NCBI RefSeq assembly: GCF_009707955.1
Contig: NZ_WMDQ01000001.1
Location: 372,001-436,000 of the forward strand
Length of the DNA stretch: 64,000 nt
Source: Flavobacterium sp. LC2016-13
GTDB lineage: Bacteria > Bacteroidota > Bacteroidia > Flavobacteriales > Flavobacteriaceae
Direction of reading: 5' to 3'
The notes beneath the pieces are model-generated. The model ran no database searches. It saw nothing but the letters and a program-made list of their open reading frames with translations, and was not told the origin of the DNA. A program made the position numbers and the translations under genes. Positions 15,338-22,974 of this stretch are shown piece by piece (positions within the stretch are counted from its first letter, which is position 1; each line of letters starts with the position of its first letter).

Positions 15338-16573
15338 TTATTCAAATTTTCGCTTGACGAACCAAATTCCGTCTAAAGATAAATTAAGTGAGATTTTATG
15401 ATAATTTTCTTTGATCAGATTATCTGAAATTCTTCCTTTTTGCCCATAAGAATACGATATATTCAACGCTGAATAAGTGTTGTCTATTGGTAATGAAAGC
15501 CCGAAAGAAATAGAAGCGTTATTGATTCTTTTTCCATCAACTTCTAGATAACCAGTATCAAAATTGGCGCCTGCACTATATTGAATACGATCCAGATATC
15601 TTCGAACATCTTTTTTGGCACTATAAGTAAAACCGAACGCAAATCTATCCTGATTAACAAAATTACCATACAGTTCAGATTGATTGGTACTATTCCACAA
15701 GCTTTTTTCATAATCCATTGTCAGGTTTAGATTATTTTTAAAACGCTTGCTAATCCCTACTCCAATCTCCAAAGGCATATAATAATCATCTGTATCTGAA
15801 GCAACATTAGATTCAACAGTAGTAACGACGTCGTTGGTTATCGTTTGAACTGTTTGCACCTTTGCCGCTTTTAATCTTGCTGGAGCTTTGAAAGTTGAGG
15901 CAATCGTAAAAGTAGAATCTATTTTGTATTGAGCTCCTAATGTTGCCCGCACGCCATTGTAATCTGTTTTTTTACTAATTGATGTAACTGAATTCGAAAT
16001 TAAATAAGCCCTGTCATCTGAGGTATTTCCAAACAACACTGTTGCTGTAGCACCAATTGCTAATTTTTTACCAAATCGATATCCATACGAAAAGTCAAAA
16101 TTATTTAATCCGCCAGAACCTGCTGCCGTTAAATAATAATATTCCTGACTATCAATTATGGGTAATTTTAAATTAGAAATTTTAAAAGCAGCACTAGAGT
16201 AAGGCCTTAAAGCCACACTAAATCCTGAATTCTTTGTAACAGGAAAAGCAAAAGCAATATGCGAGAATTGAAAATTATTACGTTTTTCAGACCTTGAACC
16301 ACTTTCATAAGTTGTCGCAATAGCTTTGCCTCCAACATCAAACATAAAATGATTTAAAGGAAGATACGCTAATGAAGCAGGATTCAGATTATTAATAAAT
16401 ATACTTGATGGTAAGGCCATTCCCGAAGAACCAATAGAAGGAATTGAACCAAAATCTGAATCATACAAACTCCCTAAACCATATAATGAATAAGGTGAAC
16501 TTGAAATACTTTGAGAAAATGAAGTTAACGACATTAAAATGAAGCAACTTAAAAAAGCTATTTTATTTTTCAT
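15338..16573 (-). CDS. Outer-membrane beta-barrel protein, FadL-like
   Basis: The 411-residue protein has a signal peptide (about 1-20, ending in SFSQ) followed by SSSPYSLYGLGS and a segment of the type SSGMALPSSIFINNLNPASLAYLP. An N-terminal stretch that places an Asn-Pro-Ala motif after a Gly/Ser-rich run is typical of FadL/OMPP1-like channels of Bacteroidota. The rest is regular beta-barrel sequence. Its ATG overlaps the stop codon of the DUF4270 gene (TAATG), so the two are translationally coupled. Function is unknown; transport of a hydrophobic ligand is only an inference from the fold. Confidence 0.7.
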   Translation of the reverse strand: MKNKIAFLSCFILMSLTSFSQSISSSPYSLYGLGSLYDSDFGSIPSIGSSGMALPSSIFINNLNPASLAYLPLNHFMFDVGGKAIATTYESGSRSEKRNNFQFSHIAFAFPVTKNSGFSVALRPYSSAAFKISNLKLPIIDSQEYYYLTAAGSGGLNNFDFSYGYRFGKKLAIGATATVLFGNTSDDRAYLISNSVTSISKKTDYNGVRATLGAQYKIDSTFTIASTFKAPARLKAAKVQTVQTITNDVVTTVESNVASDTDDYYMPLEIGVGISKRFKNNLNLTMDYEKSLWNSTNQSELYGNFVNQDRFAFGFTYSAKKDVRRYLDRIQYSAGANFDTGYLEVDGKRINNASISFGLSLPIDNTYSALNISYSYGQKGRISDNLIKENYHKISLNLSLDGIWFVKRKFE

Positions 16574-17898
16574 TAATATGAGATGTAATAAATTTTCAAC
16601 TGAATTTTATTGTTCAAATGTTTTTGATCTCCTAAAACAATTCTGTTGACAGATTTAGAAATTCCTGGCAATGTTAGAATAAGAGAAGATCTCGAATCTG
16701 ATTGTTTCGTCACTTCTTTTTGAAGAAATCCGCCTACAGAAATTGAGTATCCAATATTTTCATTAAACTCATCCGTTTTTTGATTTAATCTTCCATAAAC
16801 CGTAGCTCCTGCCGAATTTAATAATACACTGCTAATTCTATTTAAATTATCAGCGACATAAATACTTAAAGAATCTGCCAGAGGATATTCTTTTGAAAAC
16901 GTATTGGTAACTGGTTTTAAAATCAGTTCGGCATCGACAATTGTGCCTTTATCAGCAATATACCTGAGCTGCTTTATATTAGGGAAATCAATCCGGCAAG
17001 CAACTCCTGCGCCTGATTGAATAAATCCCTGTCGGTTGGTTAGCGAACTGGATAATTTGCTGCTTGAAATAGGCAAATTTTGAATGAGTGTTCCTGTCTT
17101 ATCAGACGAAATCGAATTGAATTGCTTAGTTGCATCTCCAATACTAAATTCTATAAAATACGATTTCTCATCTTCACCCTGATATTTAGAATAATACATT
17201 CTAACAACGCTTGTACTTGTGTTAAAACCAATAACACTAGAAGAATTAGATGTCGAAGGAACTAAAACAAGTCCTTTTAAATATTCCGTAAAACTATCAA
17301 GATCAGTGACTTCTTTTTTCTTTATTTTCTGAAAAAGAGCTTCACCAAATACAGGATCCATTTTTATATTAATAGAATCCTTTTCTACAGGCCTTGGTTT
17401 ATAAGATATGCTGCCCAAACTTTCGGAGCCATACGTTAGAGTCGAATTATTATAAAAACTAACATCATCTGTTTTTGGCTTAATGGTTTGCAGGACTCTA
17501 TGAATATCAAATGTTTGCACTTTTGTTGTATCTCCATAATGATAGTTATCATATCTTAAGATCATCGATATAGAATCAAAAACATAATTAACCGCTTCTG
17601 TATCAGAACCGTTATTAATTAAATTATAATTACTTGAAGATAATCGAAAATAACTTTCTGATTTTATTTTTCCAAAAATCGGATCTTCATAATTACCAAC
17701 TAAAATCCGGCTCTGATTTGATGTTACCAATGAGTCGAAATTTATAGTAGAAAGATCAACTGTTACGGTATCAATTAAAATTACTTTATTATTTACAGCC
17801 AGATAATCAGATCCAACTACAAATTCGCCGGAATCTGTATCAGTACCACATGAAAGTATTGTAAGAGCAAAAAGAAACATCAATATAAACTTATGCAT
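16573..17898 (-). CDS. DUF4270 family lipoprotein
   Basis: Starting at ATG 17898, the 441-residue product begins MHKFILMFLFALTILSCG, a clear lipoprotein signal with Cys17. The frame extends upstream to 17940, but a TATATTTG -7 element at 17915-17922 lies within that extension, which favours the shorter start. Segments such as TINFDSLVTSNQSRILVGNY and the FDSISMILRYDNYHYGD pattern are typical of DUF4270, a Bacteroidota surface lipoprotein family of unknown function. The gene is coupled to the following outer-membrane protein gene by a one-base overlap, suggesting that the two products act together at the outer membrane. Confidence 0.82.
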   Translation of the reverse strand: MHKFILMFLFALTILSCGTDTDSGEFVVGSDYLAVNNKVILIDTVTVDLSTINFDSLVTSNQSRILVGNYEDPIFGKIKSESYFRLSSSNYNLINNGSDTEAVNYVFDSISMILRYDNYHYGDTTKVQTFDIHRVLQTIKPKTDDVSFYNNSTLTYGSESLGSISYKPRPVEKDSINIKMDPVFGEALFQKIKKKEVTDLDSFTEYLKGLVLVPSTSNSSSVIGFNTSTSVVRMYYSKYQGEDEKSYFIEFSIGDATKQFNSISSDKTGTLIQNLPISSSKLSSSLTNRQGFIQSGAGVACRIDFPNIKQLRYIADKGTIVDAELILKPVTNTFSKEYPLADSLSIYVADNLNRISSVLLNSAGATVYGRLNQKTDEFNENIGYSISVGGFLQKEVTKQSDSRSSLILTLPGISKSVNRIVLGDQKHLNNKIQLKIYYISY

Positions 17899-17914: not shown

Positions 17915-17922
17915 CAAATATA
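17915..17922 (-). promoter_or_regulatory. -7 element of the DUF4270 gene
   Basis: On the minus strand this reads TATATTTG, an exact match to the -7 consensus. It would start transcription near 17908, about 10 bases before ATG 17898, and so helps decide the start codon. Confidence 0.5.
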
Positions 17923-17963
17923 TAGGGCACAATTCTGCATTACACTATAACATATACAGTCTC

Positions 17964-18038
17964 GCTATTTTCACCTATAAATAGCAAAAAAACATCTACA
18001 ATAGGTTTATGGCAACAAATAATTGGTTCAGCCATAAA
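17964..18038. other. Two inverted repeats in the divergent DUF4270/beta-barrel intergenic region
   Basis: The 190-base divergent gap holds two small inverted repeats: GCTATTT / AAATAGC (17964-17970 and 17979-17985) and TTTATGGC / GCCATAAA (18006-18013 and 18031-18038). Neither is followed by a T tract, so they are not terminators. They could be operator sites or leader structures. No binding protein can be named. Confidence 0.35.
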
Positions 18039-18105
18039 AAACGGTATTTAGTCTATCAAAAAGCACCATACATATATCTTCTTTTTTTTAAAACCATTAG
18101 GCACC

Positions 18106-18113
18106 TACTTTTG
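18106..18113 (+). promoter_or_regulatory. -7 element of the Kelch/LytS cluster
   Basis: TACTTTTG is an exact TAnnTTTG match 16 bases before the ATG at 18130. No clear -33 TTG is seen at the usual distance. Confidence 0.45.
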
Positions 18114-18129
18114 AACCAATAATTAAGTA

Positions 18130-18969
18130 ATGAAAATAAGGCTTTTAATAGGTTCTCTTTTTTTGATTTCGTTTTTGAACATGAAGGCTCAGGAAAAGTT
18201 TTCGGTTAATATGAATTTAAAAACAGAGCCCACTGACAAAATTGATTTTAATGAAGCAAGTATTGGAATATTTTTCAATGCCGCAATTAATTCAAAAAAT
18301 GAAATAAAGAACACCATTGAATATTCGAATTTGAAAGTGAATTACGAACAGGGAAGCTTTAAAGCATTTGAAAATCTGGATCAATTTGTACAGATAAAAA
18401 ACAAATTTGAAATCGCTCATACATTTTCGAGTCCAAAACTGAATCTTGCTTTAACGCCAACAGCTAATTTTCAGAGAAATTTGGAAGCATCTGATATAAC
18501 GCTCTTAGGAAGTTTTGAAATAAGTCAGCAAATTGGCGCAAAGGCAAACCTTAATATTGGTGTTTCGAGAACAGCAATTTTTGGTTATCCTAAGTTCATT
18601 CCAACTTTATCATTTCAGTATAAAGTTAATGATAAAAGTGCTTTGTTAATTGGGTTTCCGGATTCTAAGATTTCATATTCGAATAATGTTCGAAATGCAT
18701 TTAGTTTAACCAATAGCTTTAATGGCAATTTTTACAACTTAGATAATTCTTTAAATCAGGTAAATAATGCTGCAAAAGTTAGTGTATCACAAATGACTTC
18801 GGCACTTGAATATGAGCGAAATGTTGATAAAAATTGGTTTATAAATTTTAAAGCCGGTTACGATTTCAATAAGACGTATAATCTTATTGATGATAATAAT
18901 CATAAGGTCTATGATTTTAATACCGGGAACGGATATATTTTGGGAATTGGCATCAAATACAAACAATAA
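18130..18969 (+). CDS. Outer-membrane beta-barrel protein, possibly DUF6268
   Basis: The 279-residue protein has a signal peptide (about 1-20, ending in MKAQ) and then regular amphipathic strands, as in a 10- to 12-strand barrel. The segment around LLIGFPDSKISYSNNVRNAF resembles the DUF6268 outer-membrane family, but that is recalled and not checked. It opens the cluster of six + strand genes that includes the Kelch and DUF4907 lipoproteins, and ends 16 bases before the Kelch gene. The likely role is an outer-membrane partner of those lipoproteins (inference). Confidence 0.6.
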   Translation: MKIRLLIGSLFLISFLNMKAQEKFSVNMNLKTEPTDKIDFNEASIGIFFNAAINSKNEIKNTIEYSNLKVNYEQGSFKAFENLDQFVQIKNKFEIAHTFSSPKLNLALTPTANFQRNLEASDITLLGSFEISQQIGAKANLNIGVSRTAIFGYPKFIPTLSFQYKVNDKSALLIGFPDSKISYSNNVRNAFSLTNSFNGNFYNLDNSLNQVNNAAKVSVSQMTSALEYERNVDKNWFINFKAGYDFNKTYNLIDDNNHKVYDFNTGNGYILGIGIKYKQ

Positions 18970-18985
18970 ATAAATTTAATACACT

Positions 18986-19993
18986 ATGAATAATTTAAAA
19001 AATGGAATATTATTAGCGGCATTATTTTCGAGCCTCTTTTTTATAGGCTGCAGCAAAAGTGATGACGAAGATGATTTAATAGGAAACTGGGTTAAAAAAT
19101 CTGCATTTGACGGACCTGCAAGATCTAGTGCTACTAGTTTTGTTATTGGAGATTATGCTTATATAGCAACTGGTTACACGGGAGATGTGTATTTGAAAGA
19201 TTTATGGGCGTACAACTCAACAGGAGATTATTGGGAACAAAAAGCTGATTTTACAGGAATTGCAAGAAGTTCTGCTTCAAGTTTTACACTTAACGATAAA
19301 GGATATGTAGGGCTTGGTTATGATGGAACAAATAAATTGAAAGATTTTTACCAATACGATCCTACCAGCAACAGTTGGACTCAAAAAACGGATTTTGCAG
19401 GAACGGCACGTTACGCTGCTGTAGGTTTTCAGGCTGGCGGAAAAGCGTATTTTGGAACTGGTTATGATGGAAATTATTTGAAAGATTTTTATCAATATGA
19501 TGATCAAGCCAATACATGGACACTTATGAATGGTTTTAGCGGAAACAAAAGACGTAATGCTTCTGTTTTTATAATTGACGATAAAGCTTACCTGGTAGCC
19601 GGAATTAATAATGGTGTTTTACAGGCAGATTTTTGGCAATTTGATCCTGCTGCAGATGTTTGGACAAGAAAACGTGATATCGATCAGGATAAAGATGATG
19701 ACGATTCATTCAATGATGATTATACTATTGTTCGTTCTAATGCTTCTACTTTTTCTATAAACGGTTTAGGATATTTAGTTGGTGGTGAAGGTTTAAAAAC
19801 AATTTGGGAATATACTCCAACTACTGACTTATGGGTTGAAAGAACTTCTATGGAAGGAGCTTCGAGAACTGACGCTGTTGGTTTTGCAATTAACAACAGA
19901 GGTTTTTATATGTTAGGAAGATTAGGTTCTACTTATTTTGATGATGCGTGGGAATTTAAACCTTTAGAGGAACAAAATGACGATGATAATTAA
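18986..19993 (+). CDS. Kelch-repeat lipoprotein
   Basis: The 335-residue product has a lipoprotein signal with lipobox FIGC (Cys22) followed by an acidic, flexible SDDEDD linker. Six Kelch-type repeats of about 45-50 residues fill the rest: each has an R-S/N/D-A pair, a central GY or GG turn, and a closing Y/F-x-P-x-x-D/N-x-W element. Six repeats are enough to close a beta-propeller. In the fifth repeat an acidic insertion (DQDKDDDDS, near residue 235) widens one loop and may bind cations. The gene overlaps the DUF4907 gene by 17 bases, so the two products are made together. A carbohydrate- or protein-binding role is inferred; no oxidase residues are evident. Confidence 0.88.
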   Translation: MNNLKNGILLAALFSSLFFIGCSKSDDEDDLIGNWVKKSAFDGPARSSATSFVIGDYAYIATGYTGDVYLKDLWAYNSTGDYWEQKADFTGIARSSASSFTLNDKGYVGLGYDGTNKLKDFYQYDPTSNSWTQKTDFAGTARYAAVGFQAGGKAYFGTGYDGNYLKDFYQYDDQANTWTLMNGFSGNKRRNASVFIIDDKAYLVAGINNGVLQADFWQFDPAADVWTRKRDIDQDKDDDDSFNDDYTIVRSNASTFSINGLGYLVGGEGLKTIWEYTPTTDLWVERTSMEGASRTDAVGFAINNRGFYMLGRLGSTYFDDAWEFKPLEEQNDDDN

Positions 19994-20315
19994 TAGTAAA
20001 AAACAATTCTTCTGGGCCAAAATCCAGAAGAATTTACTTTTTATCCTGCTTGTTTTACTTTTGGCATCTTGCAAAAAAAGTGAAACATTTAAAACTGAAT
20101 CTTTCAAAACCACATCAGGTTGGGGATATTCAATAGCTTATAAAAATAAAATTGTAATCAAACAATCCGTTATTCCGGTTTTAAGCGATACCAAAAGCTT
20201 TTCGACAGAAGAAGATGCATTAAAAGTGGGGAGTTTAGTAGAAAAAAAACTCCGCGATGGCATTTTGCCTACGGTAACAAAAAATGATTTAATTTTATTA
20301 AAAATAAAAATCTAA
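19977..20315 (+). CDS. DUF4907 family lipoprotein
   Basis: The 112-residue protein has a lipoprotein signal (lipobox LASC, Cys32) and a compact domain beginning SGWGYSIAYKNKIVIKQSVI and ending with a Val-Glu-Lys-Lys helix and a short strand, which fits DUF4907. This family of unknown function is found with Kelch proteins in Bacteroidota. The start overlaps the end of the Kelch gene by 17 bases, and the stop is followed at once by the ATG of the sensor kinase, so the three genes are tightly coupled. A second ATG at 19983 is an equally plausible start. Confidence 0.78.
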   Translation: MTMIINSKKQFFWAKIQKNLLFILLVLLLASCKKSETFKTESFKTTSGWGYSIAYKNKIVIKQSVIPVLSDTKSFSTEEDALKVGSLVEKKLRDGILPTVTKNDLILLKIKI

Positions 20316-21428
20316 ATGAATATAGGCGCCATTAAAAATACAAACTCTAACAAAATTTTATTCCATAGTATTATATGGACTTTCTTTATTTTGACTTCTT
20401 TAATTCAATTTTACGAAAGTCCTTTTAGTATCAATAATGATTTCTATGTACAATGGGCAACGGGAATTATTTTGTTTTATCTGAATTATTTTTATCTGGT
20501 TCCGGTTTTACTTTTAGAAAAAAAATATTGGCTTTACTTTGTTTTTGTATTTGCGCTAATCATAATTTTTATGGTTATCAGGATTAATTATTTTATTCCT
20601 GAATTTAAACACATAAGGCCACGAAACATGCCGCCACCGGGAAATATGGATGTAAGATTCATGTATAGAGGCGGAAAAGTAAGAGGTATAATGGCAACCA
20701 GGCATCAACCGCTGTTTTTTAAAATTGGGCCTTCTTTATTTTATATTTTAATTATTGCAATAAGCGCTATTATTAGAACATTAACCGAGTTTTATAATAA
20801 TCAGCAAAATAAATTAATTGCCGAAACACATAGAACAAATACTGAATTAATATACTTGCGAAAACAAACGAATCCGCATTTTTTATTCAATTCTTTAAAT
20901 AGTATCTATTCTTTGGCACACAAGAAATCTGATTTGGTCCCTGATGCCATCGTGACATTATCAGAATTAATGCGCTATATGCTGTATGAAACGGATAACA
21001 AAACGGTGGCTTTAGAAAAAGAGATCAACTATATTCAAAATTATATTGAACTGCAAAAACTAAGGCTTAATAATATCGAAGACATTGTAATAAACGTTCA
21101 CGGTAATACCAAAAACAAGTTTATAGAGCCTTTATTATTGATTTCATTTGTAGAAAATGCTTTTAAATACGGGACTGATTATAAAGGGGCAGCCCATGTA
21201 AAAATTAAGATTTTCATATTAGATGACAATCTGGATTTCTGGATTGAAAACACTATTGAAAATTATGTAAAGGACCCTGAAAATTCAGGAATTGGTTTAG
21301 TAAACATTCAAAATCGACTTGATTTGCTTTATCCAAATGCACACGTACTCAACATAACACAAGATAATCAATATTATCGTGTCCATTTAAATTTAAATCT
21401 GGACAAAATTCAAACGTCAATAAATTAA
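20316..21428 (+). CDS. LytS/YehU-type sensor histidine kinase
   Basis: Four membrane segments lie at about residues 14-33, 45-66, 71-93 and 135-155, followed by a His_kinase (PF06580-type) domain. The phosphorylated histidine is His188 in the NPHFLFN motif; the N box is VENAFKYG (269-276) and the G box GIGLVNIQNRL (315-325). The loop between segments 3 and 4 (about 95-133), probably periplasmic, holds Met105, Met111, Met116 and Met126 and several Arg and His residues. The gene starts right after the DUF4907 stop. Its cognate regulator is probably the LytTR protein at 22258, one gene further on. Confidence 0.92.
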   Translation: MNIGAIKNTNSNKILFHSIIWTFFILTSLIQFYESPFSINNDFYVQWATGIILFYLNYFYLVPVLLLEKKYWLYFVFVFALIIIFMVIRINYFIPEFKHIRPRNMPPPGNMDVRFMYRGGKVRGIMATRHQPLFFKIGPSLFYILIIAISAIIRTLTEFYNNQQNKLIAETHRTNTELIYLRKQTNPHFLFNSLNSIYSLAHKKSDLVPDAIVTLSELMRYMLYETDNKTVALEKEINYIQNYIELQKLRLNNIEDIVINVHGNTKNKFIEPLLLISFVENAFKYGTDYKGAAHVKIKIFILDDNLDFWIENTIENYVKDPENSGIGLVNIQNRLDLLYPNAHVLNITQDNQYYRVHLNLNLDKIQTSIN

Positions 21429-21437
21429 TATCACTTT

Positions 21438-22148
21438 ATGGACAGAAAAAAATTCATCCGAAACAGTATTTTAGGAATTGCCTCATTAGCAACTGCTACA
21501 AAAATATTAGAATCCTGTTCAAAAAGCGACAACGACGATAACGGTTCAGAATCTTCTTCTGACGGAAGTTGTACTGTTTCGCCTTCAGAAACTAAAGGGC
21601 CTTTTCCAATCAAAACACCAAGTCAGTTAGTGTTAGAAAACATAAAATCAGACCGAATTGGAGTTGCATTGCTAATCAATTTGACTATTGAAAATCAAAC
21701 TAAAGATTGTACGCCATTAGAAGGTGTTTTGGTCGATGTTTGGCATTGTGATAAAGACGGAAATTATTCTGAATATGGCGGCACTTCCATGCAACAAACA
21801 GATTATACATCTGTACATTTTTTAAGAGGAAGACAAACTTCAGATGCTAAAGGAAATGTTTCATTTCTGTCGATTTTCCCTGGTTGGTATCAAGGCAGAG
21901 CGCCGCATGTACATGTTGAAGTTTTAACTTCTTCGGGATCTTCATTATTGGTGACACAAATCGCTTTTCCTGAAAATGTTTCCAGCGAAGTATATTCAAG
22001 TACAAATTATTCTGCTCACGGTCAAGCCGATACTTCGAACACTAGAGACAATGTTTTTTCTGATAGTTTATCTGATGAATTAGCCACATTAACAGGAAAT
22101 TTGACAGATGGTTATACATTAAGCAAAACTATAACAGTAAAAGCATAA
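21438..22148 (+). CDS. Intradiol ring-cleavage dioxygenase-like exported protein
   Basis: This 236-residue protein has the fold of catechol/protocatechuate dioxygenases, which use non-haem Fe(III). All four expected iron ligands can be proposed: Tyr110 (in DKDGNYSEY), Tyr151, His157 and His159 (in GWYQGRAPHVHVEV), with Arg154 as the usual stabilising residue. The N-terminus (MDRKKFIRNSILGIAS) is an export signal ending near a Cys at 27 (LESC), so it is probably a lipoprotein facing the periplasm. A secreted intradiol enzyme cannot easily feed cytoplasmic catabolism. It sits between the sensor kinase and the regulator. The true substrate is unknown. Confidence 0.82.
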   Translation: MDRKKFIRNSILGIASLATATKILESCSKSDNDDNGSESSSDGSCTVSPSETKGPFPIKTPSQLVLENIKSDRIGVALLINLTIENQTKDCTPLEGVLVDVWHCDKDGNYSEYGGTSMQQTDYTSVHFLRGRQTSDAKGNVSFLSIFPGWYQGRAPHVHVEVLTSSGSSLLVTQIAFPENVSSEVYSSTNYSAHGQADTSNTRDNVFSDSLSDELATLTGNLTDGYTLSKTITVKA

Positions 22149-22257
22149 TTTACATGTAATAAAACCAGTATTTTATGAAAATTTTAAAACTTAATTCATT
22201 GGTTTCAAACTACTTTTGACTGCCGAAACAAATTTCTAAAAATTTAATCCAAAACAG

Positions 22258-22974
22258 ATGAAATGTGTAATTATAGACGATGAACCTTTAGCGGTTGAAT
22301 TATTAGAAGATTTTGTGCGAAAAGTAGATTCATTAGAATTAGTGAGCACTTTTAATAATGCAATTGATGCTGTTTCATTTATCAATCAAACCAATATCGA
22401 TTTGATCTTTTTGGATATTCAAATGCCACATTTCTCGGGAATTGAATTTTTAAATACCATCGAAAAAAAACCTTTAATTATTTTTACCACAGCTTATTCT
22501 GATTATGCTGTCGAAGGTTTTAATCTTGGTGCTGTTGATTATTTAGTAAAACCAATTCCGTTTCATCGTTTTTTAAAATCGGTAGTACGAGCACAGCAGA
22601 TTTTTAATCCGACTGCAGCAATTCAGGCCATTTCTGAAAATACAACTGCTCCTGAATTAGAACAGGATTTTATGTTTGTGAGAGCTGAATATGAAAATGT
22701 AAAAATGAATTTTTCGGATATTTTATTTATCGAAGGCTTAAAAGATTACGTGAAAATTTACACCACTGATAATAAATTTACCCTGACCTTAATCAGTCTG
22801 ATAAAGTTAGAGAATTTACTTTCGAGCAAAGGATTTTCAAGAATTCACAGGTCTTATATTATCAATATAAAACATGTAAAATCAATTCAAAAAAATAAAG
22901 TTTTAATTAGCGATAAACGAATTCCTATTAGTGAAAGTTATAAAAATGCTTTCTTCGAAAGAATCAATTTATAA
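22258..22974 (+). CDS. LytTR-family response regulator
   Basis: The receiver domain (1-118) has the acidic pair at Asp7-Asp8, phosphoacceptor Asp53 in FLDIQMP, a Thr pair near residue 77, and Lys98 in LVKPI. The LytTR DNA-binding domain occupies about 138-235, with the usual KDYVKIYT and RIHRSYIIN segments. This is the regulator type that partners LytS-like kinases, so the kinase at 20316 is the natural mate, although the dioxygenase-like gene separates them. LytTR proteins bind promoters as direct repeats; such sites were not identified. A strong terminator follows. Confidence 0.94.
   Translation: MKCVIIDDEPLAVELLEDFVRKVDSLELVSTFNNAIDAVSFINQTNIDLIFLDIQMPHFSGIEFLNTIEKKPLIIFTTAYSDYAVEGFNLGAVDYLVKPIPFHRFLKSVVRAQQIFNPTAAIQAISENTTAPELEQDFMFVRAEYENVKMNFSDILFIEGLKDYVKIYTTDNKFTLTLISLIKLENLLSSKGFSRIHRSYIINIKHVKSIQKNKVLISDKRIPISESYKNAFFERINL

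Follow-up and report, generated by a model that had tools for sequence, protein, structure and literature searches.

A divergent Flavobacterium locus links paralogues of BamG and BamH to a Kelch lipoprotein, DUF4907 and a LytS/LytTR two-component system: a candidate auxiliary module of the Bacteroidota BAM

The β-barrel assembly machinery (BAM) of Bacteroidota, with BamG and BamH in its core, was described in 2025 for Flavobacterium johnsoniae (PMC12611786) and for Bacteroides thetaiotaomicron and Porphyromonas gingivalis (PMC12578637); here and below, what is attributed to a cited paper refers to the part of its text that was available. Both papers treat a further pair, BamG2 and BamH2, on its own. 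In F. johnsoniae BamG2 and BamH2 showed no appreciable expression in rich medium, and subunit homologues including both could be deleted (PMC12611786); in B. thetaiotaomicron, where the pair is BT1785/BT1786, BamG2 was readily deleted and neither BamG2 nor BamH2 was detected in the proteomes of a delta-bamH strain (PMC12578637). The B. thetaiotaomicron machinery also includes BamI, a six-bladed propeller surface lipoprotein that touches BamH (PMC12578637). Here we describe a locus of Flavobacterium sp. LC2016-13, in a window of 64,000 nucleotides (positions 372,001 to 436,000 of contig NZ_WMDQ01000001.1, forward strand), that encodes such a pair back to back with a Kelch lipoprotein, a DUF4907 protein and a LytS/LytTR two-component system. 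Coordinates are those of the window, and L and G numbers are our handles for loci and genomes.

A sequence-only reading of the window had picked out six linked plus-strand genes as what looked like a complete envelope sensing system, joined in no described pathway. The six open reading frames (ORFs; 18130-18969, 18986-19993, 19977-20315, 20316-21428, 21438-22148 and 22258-22974) were recovered, as were their families by Pfam (DUF6268, Kelch_1, DUF4907, His_kinase, Dioxygenase_C, and Response_reg with LytTR), the 17-base overlap of the Kelch and DUF4907 genes (19977-19993), and the DUF4907 stop that ends at 20315, directly before the kinase ATG at 20316. The view of these genes as a conserved unit of the envelope that includes a two-component system stands. 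Their completeness is not supported: the likely outputs include the divergent bamG2-bamH2 pair, with which the cluster extends on the minus strand to 15338 and which had been overlooked. The genes of the locus are:

15338 to 16573, minus strand: bamG2, a FadL/TodX-type outer-membrane barrel and BamG paralogue (PDB profile matches; 30% identity to the genome's canonical BamG)
16573 to 17898, minus strand: bamH2, a DUF4270 surface lipoprotein and BamH paralogue (Pfam DUF4270 7.6e-28; AlphaFold2 (AF2) model)
18986 to 19993, plus strand: surface lipoprotein with six Kelch repeats (Pfam Kelch_1 1.1e-23)
19977 to 20315, plus strand: small DUF4907 protein, lipid-anchored in the window (Pfam 1.5e-20)
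20316 to 21428, plus strand: LytS-type histidine kinase (Pfam His_kinase 1.5e-24)
22258 to 22974, plus strand: LytTR response regulator (Pfam Response_reg 4.5e-21, LytTR 1e-18)
18130 to 18969, plus strand: DUF6268 outer-membrane barrel, optional, in 54 of 80 Flavobacteriaceae loci (Pfam 6.2e-13)
21438 to 22148, plus strand: intradiol-dioxygenase-like surface lipoprotein, optional accessory (Pfam Dioxygenase_C 8.3e-12)

The host genome (5.9 Mb) has 15 matches for LytS-type kinases, one each for DUF4907 and PF00775, and two DUF4270 proteins. Among named organisms, the locus has its closest relatives in Flavobacterium, the BamG2 of Flavobacterium sp. P3160 being 94% identical. The claim that no described pathway joins these parts held up: our literature search found no paper on DUF4907 (and a single one for DUF6268), none joining Kelch and LytTR in Flavobacterium, and none on an intradiol dioxygenase lipoprotein in Bacteroidetes or an F. 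johnsoniae kelch with a histidine kinase, and the words 'Kelch' and 'two-component' are absent from the main texts of PMC12611786 and PMC12578637. Neither 2025 paper, in the text consulted, connects BamG2/BamH2 with Kelch, with DUF4907, with a two-component system or with the mirrored arrays set out below. Among the literature matches listed for the name BamG2, only PMC12578637 concerns the protein.

We compared the divergent pair with proteins of known structure. A BamG2 profile (A1, 49 relatives) matched PDB chains 9hiv_F (1.5e-86), 9hjm_F (1e-82) and 9n2d_B, labelled 'Bam G' (2e-65); the first two are labelled 'Outer membrane protein' only, and their identity as BamG is deduced from the BAM entries to which they belong. 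The aromatic channels TbuX, CymD and TodX scored 1e-15 and weaker, far below the BAM chains, and the window BamG2 taken alone matched 9n2d_B at 3.9e-33. BamG2 retains the SPYS-x-YG motif that BamG has at its N-terminus, with P27, S29, G32 and G34 invariant in 49 sequences. Likewise, a BamH2 profile matched the BamH chain 9n2d_C (1.4e-9), and the AF2 model of BamH2 (pLDDT 87.4), compared by VIA-align, gave Z scores of 25.5, 24.1 and 20.9 with the BamH chains of F. johnsoniae, P. gingivalis and B. thetaiotaomicron, the next fold scoring 12.2; against 9n2d_C, 392 residues were aligned (rmsd 4.2, Z 25.5). A lipobox was present in 75 of 78 BamH2 relatives, and 65 of these 75 have at least two acidic residues after the cysteine (the criterion used throughout for a surface lipoprotein is at least two among the six residues that follow the lipidated cysteine). 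The genome's canonical BamG and BamH, which match the F. johnsoniae BAM chains at 4.4e-204 and 1.8e-182, are encoded elsewhere, and the window pair are therefore paralogues of them: BamG2 is 30% identical to the canonical BamG, while BamH2 gave no BLAST match to the canonical BamH of the same genome. The pair thus resembles the BamG-BamH canopy of the core BAM (entries 9n2d; 9hiv, 9hj3, 9his; 9hjm) in being a barrel plus an arched DUF4270 surface lipoprotein, the likeness resting on a fold model for BamH and on sequence, including the conserved N-terminus, for BamG. It differs in being paralogous, in being tied to Kelch, DUF4907 and a two-component system, and in being reported as dispensable and as unexpressed on rich medium.

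In all likelihood, judging by sequence, the window pair corresponds to the published BamG2/BamH2. One of our genomes (G528, a single contig) belongs to F. johnsoniae or to a very close neighbour, since 400 residues of its BamG were compared and are identical to 9n2d_B, and of the two BamG-like matches among those listed for this genome the second lies at a full locus (L119) that includes the dioxygenase-like gene. Match counts make it almost certain that the F. johnsoniae pair of the papers is the one at L119. A lead that BT1785/BT1786 rise in iron-depleted B. thetaiotaomicron was dropped: they were 3.6-fold up, yet with P=0.437 (PMC10434189). We also noted that several DUF4907-negative genomes of the genus (for example G403, G406, G433 and G459) gave two or three matches to BamG, all of them outside the score range of BamG2; there seem to be further BamG-like paralogues outside this locus.

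Conservation of the locus was assessed in 140 DUF4907 neighbourhoods, comprising 32 of 32 matches from Flavobacteriaceae outside the genus, 48 of 70 from the genus, and 60 of 81 matches of the class from other families; the profiles were seeded from the window, and counts in other families are lower bounds. In 45 of 48 genus loci and in all 32 loci of other Flavobacteriaceae, 77 of 80 together, the genes follow one another as BamG2-BamH2 <> [barrel]-Kelch-DUF4907-kinase-regulator. The comparison passed over small unlabelled ORFs and did not require DUF4907, its ORF having been dropped by an overlap filter in six loci that still count as DUF4907 loci because the PF16250 search was centred there. 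The exceptions are a split locus (L075, see below), one at a contig end (L091) and a lone DUF4907-Kelch pair (L111). Between members, 60 of the 78 loci with BamH2 show no unlabelled ORF; the other 18 show a single one, 61-147 aa long, which in some cases is the DUF4907 gene missed by the filter. Kelch (80 of 80) and the divergent pair (78 of 80) are the near-constant members, a stricter conservation than that of the barrel (54) or the dioxygenase-like gene (13), and we accordingly rejected the six-gene cluster as the whole system. Homologues of four flanking genes were found in none of the 32 loci outside the genus. The sequence-only reading had named freely varying neighbours as what would undo the linkage, and clearly the neighbours do not vary freely.

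A similar picture was obtained at the level of genomes. BamG2 occurs in 69 of 70 DUF4907-positive genomes of the genus and in none of 179 DUF4907-negative ones (249 genomes; Fisher value 1.9e-61, which overstates independence, as ancestry is shared); matches of at least 489 bits were taken as BamG2, the next scoring 269.6, and the class lies wholly at the top of the matches listed. The parts stay together even where they are reshuffled, as in L139, where kinase, regulator, Kelch, DUF4907, BamH2 and BamG2 follow one another on one strand, the kinase being divergent (23% identity). Ten neighbours at class level examined by Pfam held no further DUF4270 or Kelch protein. We conclude that the locus is divergent and two-sided, with the barrel and the dioxygenase-like protein as optional members.

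The region between the two halves carries the following elements:

17915 to 17922, minus strand: -7 box TATATTTG of the bamH2 promoter, 16 bases before codon 17898
17951 to 18001, minus strand: array facing bamH2, with repeats TTGTAGATG (18001-17993), TTATAGGTG (17980-17972) and CTGTATATG (17959-17951) at a 21-bp period
18026 to 18081, plus strand: array facing the Kelch operon, with repeats at 18026-18039, 18047-18060 and 18068-18081 at a 21-bp period; predicted LytTR sites
18106 to 18113, plus strand: -7 box TACTTTTG of the Kelch-operon promoter, 16 bases before the ATG at 18130

The flavobacterial sigma-A signal is a TAnnTTTG -7 box (PMC9723704), and LytTR regulators bind repeats of 9-11 nt separated by spacers of 11-13 nt (PMC4847170), a rule of repeat and spacer size near a promoter with which the 21-bp arrays agree. 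The two triple arrays are mirrored, and each is followed by a TAnnTTTG box, at 38 bases from the third repeat on the Kelch side and 37 on the bamH2 side; both start codons lie 16 bases past their own -7 box, provided that bamH2 starts at 17898. The longest bamH2 ORF starts at 17940, upstream of the predicted -7 box, and the lipoprotein signal begins at Met15, codon 17898, which is the likely start; annotation from the first ATG would then run 14 codons too long. The register on the Kelch side was 38 in all 36 genus loci scored, these being the ones, among 46 with a divergent region, that fit the box-2 pattern; on the bamH2 side it was 37 in 34 of 37 loci scored and 38 in two, and in one the box was not found. 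Across the 32 divergent promoters from outside the genus, direct repeats at a 21-bp period gave z 9.6 against dinucleotide shuffles, lag 42 gave z 3.0, and the remaining lags from 8 to 44 gave z -4.0 to 2.7; at least nine of 12 matches at lag 21 were seen in 19 of 32 promoters as against 7 of 72 control intergenic regions of the same loci (z 7.6). A scan for sigma-70 promoters was uninformative (26 found, 26.3 expected).

An operator model (R1), built on the Kelch-side array from 28 of 35 distinct sites, was used to search for further sites. In the window genome it found one full-length site, of 57.6 bits, and no second full-length array, the next match scoring 18.9 bits (150 of 7305 first-look candidates scored); the remaining matches were partial, the best three having no evident contextual link. 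When 249 genomes of the genus were scanned with stricter filters (22 candidates scored per genome), sites of at least 25 bits were found in 64, all of them DUF4907-positive, and three DUF4907-negative genomes had partial matches of 21 to 24.8 bits. One fragmented genome (G466, 75% complete) has about 11 kb of other genes between the two operons (L291, G466:C156, 3998-14061); here the array region occurs in two copies (165 bp, 81% identical), one kept by each half, and no TAnnTTTG box was found towards the Kelch side of the copy beside bamH2. These patterns give good support to co-regulation of BamG2-BamH2 and the Kelch operon through the LytTR regulator of the locus; binding of the arrays by the regulator is a prediction from co-occurrence.

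The two-component system has the expected domains, a His_kinase with its histidine and a receiver joined to LytTR. The phospho-acceptor His188 is invariant in 24 kinase sequences, in which the catalytic core is kept and the loop among the N-terminal hydrophobic segments is, by eye, short and variable. Such a loop argues for sensing through a partner, for which DUF4907 is the natural candidate, its stop codon in the window touching the first codon of the kinase gene. Outside the genus, 10 of 32 loci have kinase and regulator genes that overlap by 4 bases. The closest described counterparts are LytS/LytTR systems such as Escherichia coli YpdA/YpdB, likewise a LytS-type kinase and a LytTR regulator with direct repeats, the YpdB site consisting of GGCATTTCAT twice, 21 bp apart by our count. 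The window system differs in having three boxes per promoter in a mirrored, divergent arrangement, in its short and variable N-terminal loop, and in its attachment to a locus of BAM paralogues. At five loci (L061, L066, L120, L121 and L128) the BamG2 gene has an additional LytS/LytTR pair, or LytTR genes, as its neighbour; L120, L121 and L128 have no such pair after DUF4907, and in these three the genes beside BamG2 may be the cognate system, located on the opposite side.

The window Kelch protein has repeats at residues 46, 94, 142, 189, 250 and 294, the first lying 24 residues past the lipidated cysteine, and is expected to be a six-bladed propeller. Among Kelch orthologues with a lipobox, 74 of 77 carry the surface-export signature. 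A possible likeness is with BamI of the Bacteroides and Porphyromonas BAM, a surface lipoprotein with a six-bladed propeller next to BamH; the window protein has six Kelch repeats, and its gene is next to bamH2. DUF4907 most likely faces the periplasm, because the surface signature is near-absent in its relatives (1 of 37 with a lipobox) and no lipobox was detected in 39 of 76 (present in 37). Its AF2 model (pLDDT 91.1) shows a helix plus b-b-b-a; DUF4907 gave no PDB sequence match at E<=1 and no Foldseek match under 1e-3, and its best VIA-align matches among those listed (Z 5.3 for an MMO inhibitory subunit, 4.8 for HVO_2922) are in the range of chance. We also noted a 12-pair hairpin with a T-rich tail at 20005-20034, just inside the DUF4907 gene and directly past the Kelch stop, in a region with five terminator-like sites where 2.0 were expected; through it, DUF4907, kinase and regulator could be expressed at a lower level than Kelch. 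In L124, L127, L129, L131 and L134, all from another family, DUF4907 follows three tandem Kelch genes, with no BamG2 or BamH2 detected; at L124, the sole locus of the group checked for this, a gene upstream encodes a GEVED protein with a type IX secretion system (T9SS) tail.

We favour, with reasonable though not strong confidence, the view that the locus supplies the Bacteroidota BAM with an auxiliary module, expressed under certain conditions, that has its own switch and an alternative canopy, the last being the likeliest reading of what it makes. On stimulation, the LytS-type kinase would phosphorylate the LytTR regulator, which would fill the two mirrored triple-repeat arrays and activate both operons. 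One operon would supply the barrel BamG2 and the arched surface lipoprotein BamH2; the other would supply the Kelch lipoprotein, a periplasmic DUF4907 and the two-component system itself, with, in some species, the outer-membrane barrel and the dioxygenase-like lipoprotein. BamG2, BamH2 and Kelch would sit on BamA as a second extracellular canopy, serving particular clients or conditions and comparable to that of BamG-BamH-BamI in Bacteroides; in it Kelch may hold the place of BamI on BamH2, by analogy and not homology, and DUF4907 would report the state of the periplasm or the canopy to the kinase. Activation of the operons, the joining with BamA, the BamI-like place of Kelch and the relay by DUF4907 are steps that we infer. 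The fuller form of this proposal, that a two-component system reads the state of the surface or periplasm by way of DUF4907/Kelch and, through the mirrored divergent LytTR promoter, swaps a second canopy onto BamA, so that BAM would exist in an alternative, regulated form and DUF4907 would be a new kind of kinase accessory, we put forward only tentatively, as somewhat doubtful. The silence of BamG2/BamH2 on rich medium is as expected of a regulon that is off.

Several observations weigh against this proposal. Attempts to delete bamG and bamH failed in F. johnsoniae even with the DUF4907 locus present, and a bamH suppressor acted independently of bamH2 (PMC12611786), so that the locus is either uninduced by BAM failure or unable to substitute. 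A B. thetaiotaomicron bamH bamH2 double mutant was about the same as bamH alone in its stress phenotype, which the authors take as evidence against a rescuing alternative complex (PMC12578637). This lack of rescue after loss of bamG or bamH speaks against a simple backup and for a role specific to conditions or clients. BamI has an extra N-terminal domain that the window Kelch does not, and no BAM subunit, BamI included, was among the 60 of 86 PDB matches listed for Kelch. As to the operators, 10 of the 46 genus loci with a divergent region did not fit the box-2 pattern and were left unscored for register, the bamH2-facing array in genus loci shows an unexplained lag of 27 (z 7.0) beside that of 21 (z 6.1), five of 70 DUF4907-positive genomes gave no R1 match, and L130 and L167, from other families, have no array by the matrix despite BamG2/BamH2 beside Kelch. 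Outside Flavobacteriaceae, Kelch is near DUF4907 in 37 of 60 loci, BamH2 in 10 and BamG2 in seven; the DUF4907-Kelch pair has a life apart from BAM.

A potential explanation that would not need to invoke BAM is that BamG2-BamH2, having ceased to be a BAM part, takes up hydrophobic or aromatic compounds as a FadL/TodX-like channel with a lid at the surface; the compound would be bound by Kelch and sensed by the kinase, and the dioxygenase-like lipoprotein would act on catechol-type substrates at the cell surface. Profile A1 does also match TbuX (1e-15), CymD and TodX, the genome's only PF00775 protein sits here, in a family found in 13 of 80 loci at three positions, and the published pair is dispensable and silent on rich medium (PMC12611786). 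Nevertheless we think this unlikely: the best profile matches by far are chains of BAM entries, the SPYS-x-YG motif is retained, the extended N-terminus of BamG fills the lateral opening that FadL channels use (PMC12578637), BamH2 keeps the whole BamH fold, and no dioxygenase-like gene was found in 67 of the 80 loci. A general response to BAM or envelope stress, in which loss of canonical BAM is sensed and BamG2H2 replaces BamGH, would suit a dedicated regulator with an envelope output, and the 2025 Nature paper, in its discussion, leaves room for BamH to be more critical under stress. It is made improbable by the essentiality of BamA, BamG and BamH in F. johnsoniae, itself a carrier of the locus, and by the failure to detect BamG2 and BamH2 in delta-bamH proteomes of B. 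thetaiotaomicron (PMC12578637).

Could BamG2-BamH2-Kelch instead act as a PorV-like shuttle or surface-lipoprotein export partner, receiving a particular secreted or surface protein instead of assisting BamA? PorV is likewise a FadL homologue (PMC12578637), and the loci with three Kelch genes before DUF4907, with a T9SS-tail protein near one of them, would fit; given that no T9SS tail was found on the window Kelch and that the features of both BamG and BamH are kept, we consider this very improbable. An accidental gene cluster has nothing more in its favour than the optional status of the barrel and the dioxygenase-like protein, and was rejected as scarcely credible on the conservation of order (77 of 80 loci, against none of 32 for the flanks) and on co-occurrence in the genus (69 of 70 against 0 of 179).

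The dioxygenase-like protein, which the sequence-only reading had placed among the core parts as a periplasmic enzyme, found support on neither count. With the gene present in 13 of 80 loci it was dropped as a core enzyme, and in all 13 the protein carries a surface-export signature. Eleven loci have the gene between kinase and regulator; in L046 it separates Kelch from DUF4907, and in L050 it follows the regulator. From these three positions it was recruited, or moved within the locus, probably more than once. Its NYS-x-Y, GWY and HxH motifs are conserved in 13 of 13, and among them are two tyrosines and two histidines which we take to be the ligands. By its domain it is a predicted enzyme of the intradiol ring-cleavage type.

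Both 2025 groups reported silent paralogues without a role, and the locus described here offers them a likely regulator, operator and partners; the possession of a sensor and regulator of their own may explain the apparent silence of these spare BAM parts in the laboratory. DUF4907 and DUF6268 would gain a first functional setting. If the proposal is true, Bacteroidota can re-equip their machine for the assembly of outer-membrane proteins.

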